58,904 bases of DNA from Myxococcales bacterium (lineage in GTDB: Bacteria > Myxococcota_A > Polyangia > Polyangiales > Houyiibacteriaceae): the NCBI GenBank assembly GCA_024640845.1, contig JAHEEE010000016.1, positions 1 to 58,904 on the forward strand, given 5' to 3'. The notes under the pieces are model-generated. The model saw only the letters and a program-made list of their open reading frames with translations. It did no database searches and had not been told where the DNA came from. Shown in pieces: positions 5,357 to 12,012 of this stretch. Each line of letters starts with the position of its first letter. Position 1 is the first letter of the stretch. Position numbers and translations under genes: made by a program.

Positions 5357-5463
5357 TCAAACGCCCTTTAAGGTTCGCGCGTCAGGCGACATAACATTTG
5401 GTACCGCGCAATTGGGCGCTCGTCTTGAGCCCGATGGGCTAAGAGAGCTCGAAACTCAGAAGG

Positions 5464-6609
5464 GTGGGCGCTCAGTCGAGATCGGCGCACGGTGTCTACA
5501 CGGTCCGCTTCACGCACCGCGGTCGACGGCAGCACCGATCCACGAGCGTTAGAGATCTTGCAGGAGCTAAGGTCGAAGCGGCGCGAATCTACGCCGAGAC
5601 TATTTCCGGTCGCCGACTGCAAGACCGACCACGAGATCTGAAAGAGCTCGACGTCTTGCTCGCCGAGTGGCTCATGCAGATCGAGTCCGAGATCGCGCCC
5701 GAAACCTGGAAGACGTTTCGCGGATACTGCTCGAACCACTTCCTGCCCTTCTTCGAGTCGGCCGAGCGGCTCACCGTGAGCTCCATCGAAGACTACAGCC
5801 GCATGCGGCTGCGCCACGTCACACGGCCCACGGTGGCGAAGGAGCTCTCCGCCCTTCGAAATTTCCTTGGCTGGGCCGAGCGCCGAGGCGAAATCGACGA
5901 GGCTCCCGTCGTTCGAAATCCTCCCAGGCGTTCGACCGGGACCGCCTACGACGGCGGAAAACGCGACAAGGTGCGGGTCTCGCTGACCAGCGAGCAAGCC
6001 GATGCGATCATTGACCTTCTACCGGAACGGACCCCTGTAGCTGGCTATCCCATCAAGGCGCTCTTCACGGTCATCTGGGATACGAGCCTCCGCATCGGAA
6101 CGATGTGGCGGCTCGAGGTACCCAAACACTACAAGCCAGGAGACGACGTGCTCCGCATCTCCAAGGAGATCGACAAGTCTCGGTATGCCCGCGCCGTGCC
6201 ACTGACGCCCCGAGCGCGCCGCGTGCTCGATGCGATCTGCCCTGAAGAGGGCCTCATCTTCCGCCGCTTCGAGTACCGCCGGATGCTAGTCCAGACTGCA
6301 CGCAAGGTGCTTGGCACGGAGCACGAGGCCAAGCACCTGAGCGCCCATGACTTCCGCCACGCCGCGCTCACACACATGGCCGCGGTCGGCAGCGACCTGA
6401 CCGCCATCGGGCACATCGCCGGCCACAAGAACGCGACCACCACCGCCCTCTACGTGCACAACTCAGAAGCTGCCGCACGCCGCGCGGTCGCTCGCCGAGC
6501 CGGAATTCTGGACACCGAAGTGGACACCAGTGCCGGCCAAGCGGCCGAAAAGTGTCCAGTGGTACGACCTAAGTTTTCGGAATCATTTAGTGGGCCATCC
6601 TGGACTTGA
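5464..6609 (+). CDS. tyrosine-type site-specific integrase
   Basis: A 381-residue tyrosine recombinase. It has an N-terminal arm-type/SAM-like DNA-binding part (about 10-140) and a catalytic domain with Arg210 (TSLRIG), His295 and Arg298 (HDFRH), His321 (AGHKN) and Tyr330 (ALYVH), so it looks catalytically complete. A GTG start at 5464 directly follows AGAAGG. The stop lies inside a 63-bp copy of the tRNA-Lys 3' region. The same frame continues open for a further 99 codons past this TGA, and the other copy of the repeat has CGA (Arg) there, so the original protein was probably about 481 residues with the att core in its coding sequence. Confidence 0.92.
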   Translation: MGAQSRSAHGVYTVRFTHRGRRQHRSTSVRDLAGAKVEAARIYAETISGRRLQDRPRDLKELDVLLAEWLMQIESEIAPETWKTFRGYCSNHFLPFFESAERLTVSSIEDYSRMRLRHVTRPTVAKELSALRNFLGWAERRGEIDEAPVVRNPPRRSTGTAYDGGKRDKVRVSLTSEQADAIIDLLPERTPVAGYPIKALFTVIWDTSLRIGTMWRLEVPKHYKPGDDVLRISKEIDKSRYARAVPLTPRARRVLDAICPEEGLIFRRFEYRRMLVQTARKVLGTEHEAKHLSAHDFRHAALTHMAAVGSDLTAIGHIAGHKNATTTALYVHNSEAAARRAVARRAGILDTEVDTSAGQAAEKCPVVRPKFSESFSGPSWT

Positions 6610-6633
6610 ACCAGGAGCCAATGGATTAAGAAT
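6571..6633 (+). repeat. att core copy (tRNA-Lys 3' half), left copy
   Basis: This segment repeats at 11622-11684, 5051 bp to the right. From 6581 onward 52 of 53 bases are identical; the left 10 bases are partly diverged. Positions 6591-6633 correspond to the tRNA-Lys acceptor 3' strand, T arm, variable region and anticodon-arm 3' side, ending in the anticodon loop. The single core mismatch (T6607 versus C11658) creates the integrase stop codon. No complete tRNA can be formed here because the 5' half is absent. Confidence 0.9.
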
Positions 6634-6909
6634 GAGAACCATCCGTCGGCATCCGTCGCAAACGGTGAGATTACGGGGGATGAACACTGCCCGATTGCGA
6701 CGGATCAGACCGGTGATGCCATTTCAAAACCCTTTCGTGCCCTTTCGCGGAGCACGCTGATCGCGTCGCTCTACCAACACGCGAGCGCTCTGGCGCAAGC
6801 CGGAGACATCGAGGCTGCGCGGGTTGCGCATGAGGCTGCAGGGAAGCTTCTCTCAGTGACAGAAGCCGCGGACACCGTGGTCGATCTCAGTCAGCGCCGG
6901 AAGCCGTAG
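6610..6909 (+). pseudogene. read-through 3' extension of the integrase frame
   Basis: Directly after the integrase TGA the same frame stays open for 99 codons to a TAG at 6907-6909. The first codons (TRSQWIKN) are tRNA-derived, and the rest is protein-like: SKPFRALSRSTLIASLYQHA, then an amphipathic ALAQAGDIEAARVAHEAAGKLL and DLSQRRKP. It looks like the 3' end of an integrase gene, or of a fused downstream domain, on the other side of an internal att site. With the TGA in place it is probably untranslated unless a start inside it is used or the stop is read through. Confidence 0.6.
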
Positions 6910-7058
6910 CCACGCACCCGCTGCGCCCGCACTGCCCTCCACGCAGGAAATGCGCAAGAGCAGCGCGAAAGCCGCAGCGGTTCCGTCGCCAGGGTTGGCA
7001 TGGCTGATGCACCACCTCGGGCCAGTAGCGCTTAGCGCCGAAGCAGCGGAGGTGGATC

Positions 7059-10000
7059 ATGAGGCGTTCCGTTTTTCTTTCAACGTTCCTCTTTGCGGCG
7101 GTGTTAAGCCCGATCACCTTAAATAGCTTCACGTGCGCCCCCCCTGCAGACGCAAGGCTTTCCATCCTCGAGCTCCGGGTCGGTGACTTTCACGGCGAAA
7201 ACGTAATCGAGGGATTCAGCCCCAACGTGTTTTCATACGACGTTCGCTTCCCGGAGGAAGAGTCGGTGGGTGTGCTGTGGGTGAGAACCAACCACCCCAG
7301 CACGAAGATCGACGTGGAATACGACGGCATGCCCCTGCGGCTGGTCGGCCAATCCGTGGCCAAGCTCGAGGTGCCGCTTGGGCAAAGTGAGCTCACCATC
7401 GTCGTCACCGGGCGCGGGGCCACCCCGGACTCCAACACCTACGTCGTGCGCATCCTCCGCGCCCCGGTCTTTGCGTGCACCGAAGACGGCATTCGCGAGG
7501 CGATCCTCTACGGTGGAGGGCCCAACTACTTTGACTGTGACGGACCCACCGTCGTGCCGACCGTGTACGAGATCGTCATCGACAATGACGTCATCCTCGA
7601 CGGCGAAGGCAACATGATCGTCGACGCCGGAGGAGGCGGCGGCGGTGCTGGCGGCGCTGGCGGCGACGGTGCCGGCGGCGCTGGGTTGATGGCGGCTGAG
7701 GTGGCGCCGAAGGCAAACGGTCCACATCGGGTGTTCTCGATTCCCGCAGGCGTTACGGCGGAGCTGATTGGTTTCACGGTGACAGGCGGCGCGAATGTTG
7801 AAGAAGGCGGCGGCATCCTCAACGCAGGAGTCCTCACGCTTACAAGCACCAAGGTGACCGCAAACACAGCGGATCGTGGCGGTGGAATTGTGAACCGCGA
7901 CACGGGAAGTCTGACGGTCGTTGAAAGTTCCGTGTCTGAGAACACTGCGGATTCGTATGGCGGCGGCATGCAGAATTTGGGACAAGCCCTGCTCGCGGAC
8001 ACCAATATTTCCAGGAACGCCGCCGGCAGTGCTGCTGCTGCCATTTCAAACGGGTTCGATCAGCCCGAGGCAGTCATGACCCTCGTCCGCTGCTTGATCC
8101 AGGACAATATCGCCCAACAAGGCGCGGGTGGGATCACGAACTACGCCACGCTGGAGCTGAACAACTCGACCGTTTCCGGCAATGCGGGTCCGCGCGCTGG
8201 AGGCATCGGGAACCGAGGGGATCTCACAATCGCGAATACGACAGTCTCCTCGAACACGTCGGAAGGCGATGGTGGAGGCGTTCGGAACAACGAGAACGGC
8301 ACGCTGACCGTGATGGCCAGCACTGTCTCCGAGAACACCGCGATGTTCGGAGCCGGCATCCGGAACTTCGGTCAGGCCGAGGTCATCGATACCATGGTGG
8401 CCGACAACACCGCGGGGCAGGCCGGCGGCGGTCTCTCCAACCGACCCGGGGCAACGATGATGATCACCGGCTCTACCGTCTCCAGCAACAGGGCCCTGAC
8501 CGGAGGCTCCGGCGGCATCGCCAACTCGGGCAACATCACGGTGATCAACACCACCGTCTCCGATAACGAGGTCGGCGACGAAGGCGGCGGCATGATCAAC
8601 TATGCCGGTGGCACTGCCGAGCTGAACGACGCGACGTTGTCGTTCAATCGCTCACCGGGTCATGGCGGCGGCCTCGTGAACCGAGCGGACGCAACGATGA
8701 CGCTCGCAGGAAGCACCGTGGCTGGAAACCAGGCTGCGAACAACGGCGGCGGCATCGACAATCACGGGTGGCTCGCGTTGAGAGATAGCAGCGTCTCCGA
8801 AAACAGCTCGGGAAGCGGCGGCGGCATTTACGTCGGCCATTCGGGCGTATTGACCGTCGCGAATAGCACGTTGTCCGGAAATACGACCGAATCAGCTGGC
8901 GGCGGCATCGACATTGACGGATCGGTGACGGTTGCGAACAGCACGATCTCAGGAAACATCGCAGAGATCGGCGGCGGTGGGCTCCTCAACGACGGTTTCT
9001 TGGAGGTGAGCGACACCGCCGTGTCGAACAATGCAGCCATGCGATTCGCGGGAGGCGTTTGGAATAGCGGCGAAGCCACGTTGAGCAACGTCACGGTGTC
9101 ATCGAACAGCGCTCCCGAGGATGGCGGCGGCATCCGGAACACCGAGACCGGAGCTCTGACCGTAACGAGAAGCACCGTGAACGGAAACACCGCGGGAACC
9201 TGGGGAGGCGGCATCAGGAACTTGGGCGCCATGAACATCATGGACACGACTGTGTCCAACAACATCGCCCAAGGCGGAGCTGGACTCTCCAACCGGCCAG
9301 GGGCATGGATGGCCCTGACCAATTCGACGGTGTCAGACAATGGCATCTCCAACTGGTCGACCTTGGCCCTCGCGAGCGTGACCATCTCCGGAGAGGGCAT
9401 CTTCAACGACGGTGGATGGATCACGGCAAGGAACACGATCGTCGATAGTCCATGCAACGCGACGCCGCTGGTCAACTCGCTCGGCGGCAACATCGAGAGC
9501 CCGGGTAGTACCTGCTTCGTACCACATCCTGCGGATCAGGTTTCCCTTACCCCGGAACAACTCAACCTCGAACCACTCCAAGACAACGGCGGGCCTACTT
9601 GGACGCACGCCCTACTGCCTGGCAGCTTCGCGATCGACTCCGCTCTCGAGTGTCTCAATTGGGCAGGGTACCCATTGTTCTTGGACCAGCGGGGCGCACC
9701 TCGCCCGTACGGCCTGGCGTGTGATTCCGGCGCGTTTGAGCTCGGGGCTGTCCCGCTACCAGGGGACTTCTGCATCAACGATACGGACCGCGCAGTGTAC
9801 GAATCGCTAGCGTACGTAGACGGAGGCGGCAACCCCTCAAGCTGCACAGAAGCTGCGAGCTCGATTGCCGCGGACTGCGTCTTCGGGTCAGCGCAGTCGT
9901 CGCCCCCACTGGTCGGCTGCCCCGATGAGGTCGCGGCCGTCATCACGTGTTTCCCGAACTGTAGCCCGGACACGATTGCAGCATTCGATCAATGCGTCGC

Positions 10001-10970
10001 AGACTGCACCGAAGAAGCCACTGGGCTGTCTGCCGAGTGTGGAGACTGCTACGGCGAGTTGGCCGGATGTGGCGCAGAGACCTGCGTCCCGGAATGCGCC
10101 GGGGGTGGGACCCAACCGCCTTGCATCGATTGCCTGTTCTTCGCGGGCTGCACGGGGCGCTTCGATGCCTGCACCGGCCTTCCGGGGAGCACCGACTGCA
10201 GCGCTGGAGGCACCGGAGGTGCTGGAGGCACGGGCGGCACCGGTGGCACAGGCGGTACCCCGAAGGAGTACACACAAGACTTCGAGTCGCTCGACCAGCA
10301 GAGCCCGACCGCGCTGAGCGATGACGGATGGTTGGTCTCCGGTACCGTGTTTGACAGCGGCGGTACCTTCAAGTTTGACTACGGGCCGTTCGGCGCGCCC
10401 AACCTCGTCGGTGCCTTCTGCGACATCGACGTAGGTCAGGGCGGGTTGCCTCAAGGCGACCAACAGCTCGTGGTCTACAGCGATTACAGTTGCTGTCAGC
10501 CGAGTAGCGGACACTTTCCGTTGGGCTCAGGTACTGACCAGGTCGAGTCGAGTGTCTTCCAAGAACCATACCCGGACAACCCGGGTGAACAGATCCCAGC
10601 GGCCGCCATCGGTAAGACGCTTGTGTTCAGCTTCGATGCCAAACGCGGCAACATCAACTCTCCGACCGATCCAAGCGGAAAGTGCGACCCGCTCAGTCCG
10701 GATTACACAACCAACCCACCGTGTGACAGCACGGCACTGGCGTACATCCAGACGCTGGATCCCAGCGCCGGATTCACCCGGAGCAACTTCGTAGAGATCG
10801 ACATGACGAACCTCCCGTTCGACTGGGCTCGTTACCAGATCTCGTTGGAGCTGACCGACCCGGCTCTTGAAGGCCAAGTTCTGCAGTTTGGCTTCCGGAC
10901 CGTTGCGAACGCCTTCGAGCCGTCCGGTGTGTTCTACGACAACATCCTGGTGGTGCTCGAGGCTCTATGA
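7059..10970 (+). CDS. large secreted parallel beta-helix surface protein
   Basis: A 1303-residue protein with a Sec signal peptide (about 1-31) and a cadherin-like beta-sandwich (about 33-135, starting RLSILELRVGDF). A Gly/Ala-rich linker (about 192-213) leads into a right-handed beta-helix of roughly 25 rungs (about 227-815) with the recurring NSTVSGNTA...GGGI(R/L)N pattern of polymorphic outer-membrane-like repeats. A choice-of-anchor-Q-like segment follows (DNGGPTWTHALLPGSFAIDS, about 835-900), then a Cys-rich block (about 903-1047), a GGTGG linker and a beta-rich C-terminal domain. GGAGGTGG precedes the ATG. Likely a surface adhesin or matrix protein. It is the main cargo between the two att core copies, and its codon choice looks less GC-biased than that of neighbours. 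Confidence 0.88.
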   Translation: MRRSVFLSTFLFAAVLSPITLNSFTCAPPADARLSILELRVGDFHGENVIEGFSPNVFSYDVRFPEEESVGVLWVRTNHPSTKIDVEYDGMPLRLVGQSVAKLEVPLGQSELTIVVTGRGATPDSNTYVVRILRAPVFACTEDGIREAILYGGGPNYFDCDGPTVVPTVYEIVIDNDVILDGEGNMIVDAGGGGGGAGGAGGDGAGGAGLMAAEVAPKANGPHRVFSIPAGVTAELIGFTVTGGANVEEGGGILNAGVLTLTSTKVTANTADRGGGIVNRDTGSLTVVESSVSENTADSYGGGMQNLGQALLADTNISRNAAGSAAAAISNGFDQPEAVMTLVRCLIQDNIAQQGAGGITNYATLELNNSTVSGNAGPRAGGIGNRGDLTIANTTVSSNTSEGDGGGVRNNENGTLTVMASTVSENTAMFGAGIRNFGQAEVIDTMVADNTAGQAGGGLSNRPGATMMITGSTVSSNRALTGGSGGIANSGNITVINTTVSDNEVGDEGGGMINYAGGTAELNDATLSFNRSPGHGGGLVNRADATMTLAGSTVAGNQAANNGGGIDNHGWLALRDSSVSENSSGSGGGIYVGHSGVLTVANSTLSGNTTESAGGGIDIDGSVTVANSTISGNIAEIGGGGLLNDGFLEVSDTAVSNNAAMRFAGGVWNSGEATLSNVTVSSNSAPEDGGGIRNTETGALTVTRSTVNGNTAGTWGGGIRNLGAMNIMDTTVSNNIAQGGAGLSNRPGAWMALTNSTVSDNGISNWSTLALASVTISGEGIFNDGGWITARNTIVDSPCNATPLVNSLGGNIESPGSTCFVPHPADQVSLTPEQLNLEPLQDNGGPTWTHALLPGSFAIDSALECLNWAGYPLFLDQRGAPRPYGLACDSGAFELGAVPLPGDFCINDTDRAVYESLAYVDGGGNPSSCTEAASSIAADCVFGSAQSSPPLVGCPDEVAAVITCFPNCSPDTIAAFDQCVADCTEEATGLSAECGDCYGELAGCGAETCVPECAGGGTQPPCIDCLFFAGCTGRFDACTGLPGSTDCSAGGTGGAGGTGGTGGTGGTPKEYTQDFESLDQQSPTALSDDGWLVSGTVFDSGGTFKFDYGPFGAPNLVGAFCDIDVGQGGLPQGDQQLVVYSDYSCCQPSSGHFPLGSGTDQVESSVFQEPYPDNPGEQIPAAAIGKTLVFSFDAKRGNINSPTDPSGKCDPLSPDYTTNPPCDSTALAYIQTLDPSAGFTRSNFVEIDMTNLPFDWARYQISLELTDPALEGQVLQFGFRTVANAFEPSGVFYDNILVVLEAL

Positions 10971-11145
10971 GCCCGTCCTGTCCGTGCAACGTCGGCGCGG
11001 TTGAGGTGCAGCAGCCGTAGGCGCTGGCCCGACGCCCGCACTGCCTCCAGCGCCCGTAGGAAACAAATACGTATAGCCCGGCGCCGCCCGCCGACCCCAC
11101 GTTGCTGACGACCATCTAGTGACCGGGATCAAAGCGCAGGTTGTC

Positions 11146-11536
11146 ATGCGGTACTTGGTTGGCCTTGTGTGGGTGCTGGGGCTAGCCGCGATCGGCTGCG
11201 GCAAGAGCGACGGGAAATGCCGCGGCTCCCTCGGCGCGTACTGCGCGAGGAAGCCCTGCCCCACGTACGAGGAAGCCGTGTCGGATGCAAATGTGAACGA
11301 GATTGGGCATGCGGGGAACGGCGATTCGTAGAGATGGGCTCCCTGTCCCGCACAACGATGTTTTTCGACGACTCGTGGCGGTGACAGTCTCCGAAGATAT
11401 TGAAACGTTCTGCGACCGAACTTCCCACTGGATCTTCTACGGCCCGGTGCCACACTGCCCCGACATTCGCGTCTGCGCGTTCGGAAATTGGGTATGCATG
11501 AGTGGGTGCTACGCGACGTGCGGCGTCCAGCCGTAA
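11146..11536 (+). pseudogene. small Cys-rich lipoprotein gene broken by two frameshifts
   Basis: Frame 1 encodes a lipoprotein start (MRYLVGLVWVLGLAAIGCGK) and a Cys-rich mature part ending EIGHA. The logical continuation CGERRFVEMGSLSRTTMFFD lies in a second frame, and LVAVTVSEDIETFC with SHWIFYGPVPHCPDI and CATCGVQP lies in a third. Joined, they give a roughly 130-residue exported Cys-rich protein of a kind common in Myxococcota. Two single-base changes, near 11313 and 11373, would restore it. Genuine decay is favoured by its position in the accessory segment, but sequencing error is possible. Confidence 0.6.
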
Positions 11537-11621
11537 CCACGCAATCCCTGAGCTGCGCGTGCCCTTTGAAAAGGCACGGGAAAAGGCACGAACGACGAAC
11601 GCAGAGGCAGCTGCAATCGCT

Positions 11622-11684
11622 AAGCTACCGAAATCATTTAGTGGGCCATCCTGGACTCGAACCAGGAGCCAATGGATTAAGAAT
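11622..11684 (+). repeat. att core copy at the tRNA-Lys gene, right copy
   Basis: Partner of the repeat at 6571-6633. It covers the 3' half of the intact tRNA-Lys. Reading in the integrase direction it encodes KLPKSFSGPSWTRTRSQWIKN without the stop found in the left copy. The sequence just left of it (encoding EKARTTNAEAAAIA in the same frame) looks like another, degraded integrase C-terminus. Confidence 0.85.
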
Positions 11685-11714
11685 CCACTGCTCTACCACT
11701 TGAGCTAATGGCCC
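11642..11714 (-). tRNA. tRNA-Lys (anticodon CTT)
   Basis: Full cloverleaf on the minus strand: acceptor GGGCCAT/ATGGCCC, D arm GCTC/GAGC, anticodon loop TTCTTAA (anticodon CTT), T arm CCTGG-TTCGAGT-CCAGG. It is 73 nt with discriminator A; no CCA is encoded. It is last in the His-Arg-Lys cluster, and its 3' half is the integration core of the neighbouring element, so it is reconstituted rather than destroyed by integration. Confidence 0.95.
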
Positions 11715-11791
11715 ATGACGCGCAGCCCGTAGGCGGCTAGCGCGCTTATGTCTCGCCTTGCAGCGGGTTGCAACGCTGGTCGGCGAGTCGG

Positions 11792-11819
11792 CCCCGTAAC
11801 GTGGCTTCGCCACCACGGG
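11792..11819. repeat. palindromic spacer element, copy 1
   Basis: Contains GTGGC-TTC-GCCAC inside outer CCCCGT/ACGGG arms. Its reverse complement nearly matches 11957-11985, so the two copies flank tRNA-Arg in inverted orientation. Each can fold alone, and together they could pair around the tRNA. Confidence 0.7.
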
Positions 11820-11823
11820 ACTC

Positions 11824-11948: not shown

Positions 11949-11956
11949 AGGCGCAG

Positions 11957-11985
11957 CCCCGTGGTGGCGAAGCCACTGTACGGGG
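11957..11985. repeat. palindromic spacer element, copy 2
   Basis: GTGGC-GAA-GCCAC inside CCCCGT/ACGGGG arms. It is an inverted near-copy of 11792-11819 on the other side of tRNA-Arg. Confidence 0.7.
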
Positions 11986-12012
11986 CGAAAGGTCAACGAA
12001 AGTTTCAAAGAG

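Follow-up and report, generated by a model that had tools for sequence, protein, structure and literature searches.

Two putative integrative islands in tandem at a tRNA-Lys(CTT) gene of a Myxococcales bacterium, joined through a chimeric integrase frame with a putatively detachable tail

Why should an integrase gene close inside a copy of its own attachment core, when the same reading phase stays open on the other side? The question is raised by contig JAHEEE010000016.1 of a Myxococcales bacterium (assembly GCA_024640845.1), the whole 58,904 nt of which are referred to here as the window. A check of the window ORFs confirmed that the frame of integrase A (5464-6609, plus strand) closes at TGA 6607-6609 and that the same phase is open from 6610, for 99 codons, up to TAG 6907-6909. 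An earlier note on this DNA had explained the arrangement as two possible C-termini of one integrase, with the stop acting as a switch of integrase form or as an inactivation after integration. We instead consider it very probable that two integrative islands, A and B, lie in tandem at the 3' end of tRNA-Lys(CTT), that the frame is a chimera of integrase A and a tail, T1, belonging to B, and that this reflects a general design of integrases with detachable tails. The features are collected in Table 1.

Table 1. Features of the window that belong to, or border, the two putative islands
Feature	Position	Strand	Basis
Remaining part of element A in this contig	1..5463		Bases 1-121 coincide with the reversed end of contig C111 (exact 121-bp overlap); C111 has the far core and a T1 copy
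Integrase A (tyrosine recombinase belonging to element A), 381 codons, shortened by the in-core TGA	5464..6609	+	PF00589, 2.3e-18; relatives 85-95% identical
Inner attachment core, made up of the displaced 3' part of tRNA-Lys and 22 nt of trailer; A/B junction	6569..6633		60/65 versus 11620-11684
TGA from a C-to-T difference	6607..6609	+	Present in only one of 23 distinct core copies
T1 tail, forming the left end of element B; a segment conserved at the C-terminus of family-B integrases	6634..6909	+	Homologues on C111, L050, L078 and in 32/184 genomes of the order; dN/dS 0.14-0.48; helical hairpin model
Element B cargo: 1303-aa ORF	7059..10970	+	ORF; no Pfam match
Family-B integrase C-terminus remnant (AIPELRVPFEKAREKARTTNAEAAAIAKL), right end of element B, in core phase	11541..11619	+	Matches right end of L050, where the family-B profile scores 3e-17
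Outer attachment core, overlapping the tRNA-Lys 3' part	11620..11684		Repeat comparison
tRNA-Lys(CTT), intact integration target	11641..11714	-	ARAGORN

The core overlapping the 3' end of the integrase frame, which the earlier note had pointed out, proved to be real. It was measured as a direct repeat of 65 nt, the outer copy of which contains the 3' part of the tRNA-Lys gene, and it stands far above chance (two matches versus 0.00 expected in shuffled sequence). The copies differ at 6574, 6576, 6577, 6580 and 6607. The difference of TGA and CGA had thus been read correctly, and its description as the only clear mismatch is accurate for the tRNA-derived part (6591-6633) and inaccurate for the whole repeat, which has four more mismatches in the trailer, outside the tRNA. 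The PF00589 match of integrase A (residues 174-335) lies wholly before the core. The 99-codon frame, also correctly reported, is by itself weak evidence, the DNA being GC-rich; its homologues and the dN/dS of T1 identify the stretch as a conserved coding segment.

Integrase A has counterparts in four relatives (L010, L011, L012 and L014; in one of them the last 117 residues only). In all four it directly abuts an intact tRNA-Lys, CGA replaces TGA, and the frame crosses the core and stops at a TAG inside the tRNA, read antisense, after about 404 codons, which we take from these sequences to be the integrated form of element A. In the window, by comparison, 5.05 kb of other DNA (6634-11619) separate integrase A from tRNA-Lys, with core copies at both edges, which argues that a second element, B, was inserted at the same site. 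Since the codons after the stop are the left end of B, the 480-residue frame joins two islands, and both the tandem layout and the chimeric junction can be read from the sequence itself. Element A carries a tyrosine integrase gene, while element B has only a C-terminal remnant of one. Element B pairs the intact tRNA-Lys (11641-11714) with the displaced fragment 6591-6633; displaced tRNA fragments of element A are found at 6591-6633 and on C111. No relative of integrase A was found in viral contigs. G026, considered as an empty tRNA-Lys site, was rejected because a C-terminal remnant of integrase A lies 167 bp away.

The origin of the segment beyond the stop becomes apparent from element B and its relatives. 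The left end of B consists of the core and T1. At its right end the sequence leading up to the outer core is, in core phase, AIPELRVPFEKAREKARTTNAEAAAIAKLPKS; about 26 codons of a family-B integrase C-terminus are kept here, the rest of the gene being deleted. In L050 a family-B integrase C-terminus (3e-17), the core and T1 are successive and in frame, and this end matches the right end of B; in L136 integrase, core and T1 make up one frame of 684 aa. Both layouts indicate that T1 is the tail of family-B integrases and that B is a derivative in which this gene is almost entirely missing. Integrase A is of a different family, as the family-A profile matches none of the tail-adjacent integrases; tried as a means to find the integrases at tail loci, it matched the window only, those beside the tails being of family B. 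The earlier note had stated that a lack of homology to 6610-6909 would speak against it. Homologues turned out to be numerous, yet what they form is the tail of a different family of integrases. A single integrase with two alternative C-termini, for which the stop is a change of form or an inactivation, would account for integrase A, core and T1 standing in one phase, and for the T1 copy that C111 has at the far end of unit A. We nevertheless regard it as improbable, as the integrase ahead of T1 is of a different family in L050, L136, L134 and L142, family A has its own tail (T3, see below), and TGA is confined to one of the 23 distinct core copies. Most of element B is filled by the 1303-aa ORF, part of which shares 32% identity with a segment of L191.

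As for the stop, 21 of the 23 distinct tRNA-Lys core copies compared have CGA, one (L180) has another change, and TGA occurs solely in the inner core of the window. It looks like an ordinary private C-to-T mutation in a redundant core: the inner copy no longer serves the tRNA, so the change was free to occur there. Being one private mutation, the stop lends no support to a conserved switch. The T may have been brought by element B or be of later origin. What stands of the earlier reading is its kind, as att cores do lie inside integrase frames of this group, with the C-terminus swapped by integration, and the myxophage Mx8 was the correct precedent; the particular case is two elements and a private mutation.

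Of 184 genomes of the order, 32 contained T1 matches, with as many as 17 in a single genome, and in a phylum sample of 379 genomes every genome with a match belongs to the same order; none was found in phage records. An antisense T-arm lies at most 400 nt upstream of 9 of the 61 T1 matches, overlapping ones included, versus 2 of 2520 control segments, and 0 on the opposite strand; the other 52 have no recognisable core upstream. The dN/dS values of T1 (0.14-0.48) show coding constraint, and a single-sequence AlphaFold model of the window tail is suggestive of a helical hairpin (pLDDT near 90 over the helices).

The second tail, T3, is unrelated to T1. In L163, L173 and L175 it stands in frame behind the tRNA-Lys core, and in L058 it completes a family-A integrase as one 588-aa frame. 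T3 was detected in 13 of the 184 genomes, 11 of them in the genus, with dN/dS of 0.22-0.49, which again shows coding constraint. L054 and L053 are complete tRNA-Leu islands with split ends: the integrase abuts tRNA-Leu, T3 is close to the far core, and the far ends are marked by a 54-bp or 30-bp piece of tRNA-Leu. The core phase is equal at both ends (CEEQDSNLHVHRTLEPK in L054), therefore the joined circle would give integrase, core and T3 in frame. Of the 18 family-A integrase frames that were checked, 15 extend into a tRNA gene and stop inside or just past it. Integrase A, integrase B, T1 and T3 all read the tRNA-Lys core in one phase.

It could be objected that tail and integrase do not form one protein, given that many tails stand alone and that some integrase-core-tail joins (L076, L055) are out of frame. 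This we consider unlikely, although slightly less so than the single-integrase reading, in view of the continuous frames of 684 aa and 588 aa, the agreement in core phase between the two ends of L053 and of L054, and the common phase at tRNA-Lys.

Further arrangements were observed beside these loci. A third left end, T2, follows the tRNA-Lys core in L171, L172, L178 and L180; in core phase it meets a stop within a few codons in L171, L172 and L178. In L045 (tRNA-Arg CCG) and L063 (tRNA-Leu TAG) two family-A integrases flank one tRNA on both sides, one reading antisense into its 3' end and the other sense into its 5' end, a layout that suggests islands using the tRNA 5' half. In L058, at 7789-9552, the N-truncated integrase carries a fused excisionase-like HTH_17 domain, and a similar sequence occurs in L055 in an ORF overlapping the integrase start.

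The 121-bp identity between the start of the window and the end of C111, in reverse, makes it very probable that C111 continues the window to the left. C111 has a core copy followed by a T1 copy with 80% DNA identity, in which an 8-nt deletion breaks the frame. On the outer side of this core there is a terminator-like hairpin, resembling a tRNA terminator and common to G014. Gene synteny was looked for in this outer flank and none was found; the flank is therefore likely, from the shared hairpin, to be host DNA, and its treatment as proven host DNA was not upheld. Unit A, taken across window and C111, would then measure ~14 kb, with integrase A at its right end. Among its cargo are amidohydrolase, carbonic anhydrase, cation efflux, TetR and glyoxalase genes, and no phage or conjugation genes were seen among the proteins scanned. 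As a T1 copy occupies the far end of unit A, the last partner of integrase A in a circle may have been T1 rather than T3, and the join seen in the window may resemble element A's own attP.

Arrays of core-bounded units beside tRNA-Lys in several genomes of the genus (L050, G025, G028), together with the lack of an own integrase in element B, might bring to mind an integron-like system, in which a resident integrase next to tRNA-Lys captures cassettes that each end in the tRNA-Lys core. There is little probability in this, as the units bear integrase ends and tails of their own, of more than one family, and related integrases are also found at Arg, Leu and Val tRNA genes, as would be expected of mobile islands. 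The repeats observed are tRNA halves with adjacent integrase ends and not described attC sites.

More plausible, and quite possible if not favoured, is that the array is dead, i.e. that neither element can move any longer and the stop is one sign of decay among many. Element B has lost its integrase, the T1 copy on C111 has its 8-nt deletion, and the inner core contains a stop; on the other hand, integrase A is full length, with an intact PF00589 domain and 85-95% conservation in relatives, and the cores are nearly identical. This view is compatible with tandem islands, as it concerns present activity only.

For the tandem islands we infer the following order of events. Element A, ending on its right in integrase A, would have been present at tRNA-Lys, and element B would have settled between A and the tRNA gene. 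As all ends share the core phase, integrase A would thereby have been fused in frame, through the inner core, with B's T1, and a C-to-T change in the redundant inner core would have created the stop. In the excised circle of such an island the integrase gene presumably spans attP, with a conserved helical tail as its last part. Integration would sever this tail, leaving it at the island's far end, while the catalytic part would gain a new short end read from the tRNA; by analogy with the reports on Mx8, the shortened enzyme is probably altered in activity. The most likely role of the tail is, in our opinion, to favour integration, a suggestion to which we give somewhat less than even confidence; multimerisation or target choice are the alternatives. 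Although this is more speculative still, we hypothesize that in a class of tRNA islands of this order the detachable tail may give the integrase a built-in control of direction, since it would exist in the circle alone and be lost upon integration. As the core phase is shared by elements at one tRNA, site-specific recombination itself could swap tails and catalytic parts, giving rise to combinatorial integrases; the window might preserve an exchange of this kind between two families, which a stop later disrupted.

The closest known system is the Mx8 integrase (IntP/IntX). According to later papers, its attP likewise lies in the integrase gene, where a tRNA-derived core separates the catalytic part from a tail of ~110 residues, and the C-terminus is replaced on integration: an end of 112 residues gives way to 13 residues, with lower activity (PMC4701971) or altered specificity (PMC6070905) reported for the integrated form. 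The tRNA core in one frame with a long C-terminal part recurs in the families described here (684 aa in L136, 588 aa in L058), and in L053 and L054 the integrated ends suggest replacement of the C-terminus, with the tail at the far end and a new end from the tRNA. In the window, the tail in frame with integrase A is that of element B, and a stop separates the two. Mx8 is a phage and its tail shows no homology to T1 (a comparison of the two as candidate homologues gave no support), whereas here many small islands are concerned, with two unrelated tails, two integrase families in tandem and a chimeric join.

In archaeal suicidal integrases (SSV, pTN3 and pT26-2 types) att is likewise translated within the integrase, the gene is split on integration, and inter-element chimeras have been proposed (PMC8371274). 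There, the split takes the N-terminal part away and the catalytic-domain fragment is inactive alone, whereas here the catalytic part remains whole and loses its C-terminal tail only, PF00589 lying entirely before the core. The ssrA islands of Dehalococcoides also share a single RNA gene in tandem, part of them lacking an integration module, and have an att copy in an integrase gene; they differ in using a serine recombinase and a tmRNA target, and the accessible part of that report describes no conserved separable tail (PMC3146451). Streptococcal ICEs in rumA similarly have att in the integrase gene and integrated and excised enzymes that differ in the C-terminus (PMC4701971), but their integrases are serine integrases and their target is a protein gene.

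The Islander method already permits integrases across attP, citing Mx8 and SSV. Reviews describe gene-disrupting integrases as exclusively archaeal (PMC8371274) and att sites in integrase genes as present in very few elements, e.g. Mx8 (PMC4701971). As far as we searched the literature, the spread over many small islands of one order, the two unrelated conserved tails, the core phase that different integrase families have in common at a single tRNA, and the naturally occurring chimera are new. The Mx8 design would thus extend to many islands of one bacterial order, with a cross-family chimera found in nature, and the role of the tail is testable by simple swaps. Annotators should be aware that some short orphan proteins beside tRNA fragments may be cut-off integrase tails.

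Two repeats were noted in addition. Between tRNA-Lys and tRNA-His, a 32-nt inverted repeat (11791-11822 / 11955-11986, 91% complementary) flanks tRNA-Arg(TCG). A dispersed intergenic motif of ~50-63 bp (...GAGCCCGATGGGCTAAGAG...), possibly a regulatory or mobile repeat, precedes integrase A and cargo genes in the window (5383-5445) and in related islands (L047:14406-14343, L050:5864-5926, L078:6397-6460, and L058:2047 and 4323), its copies being 76-81% identical.
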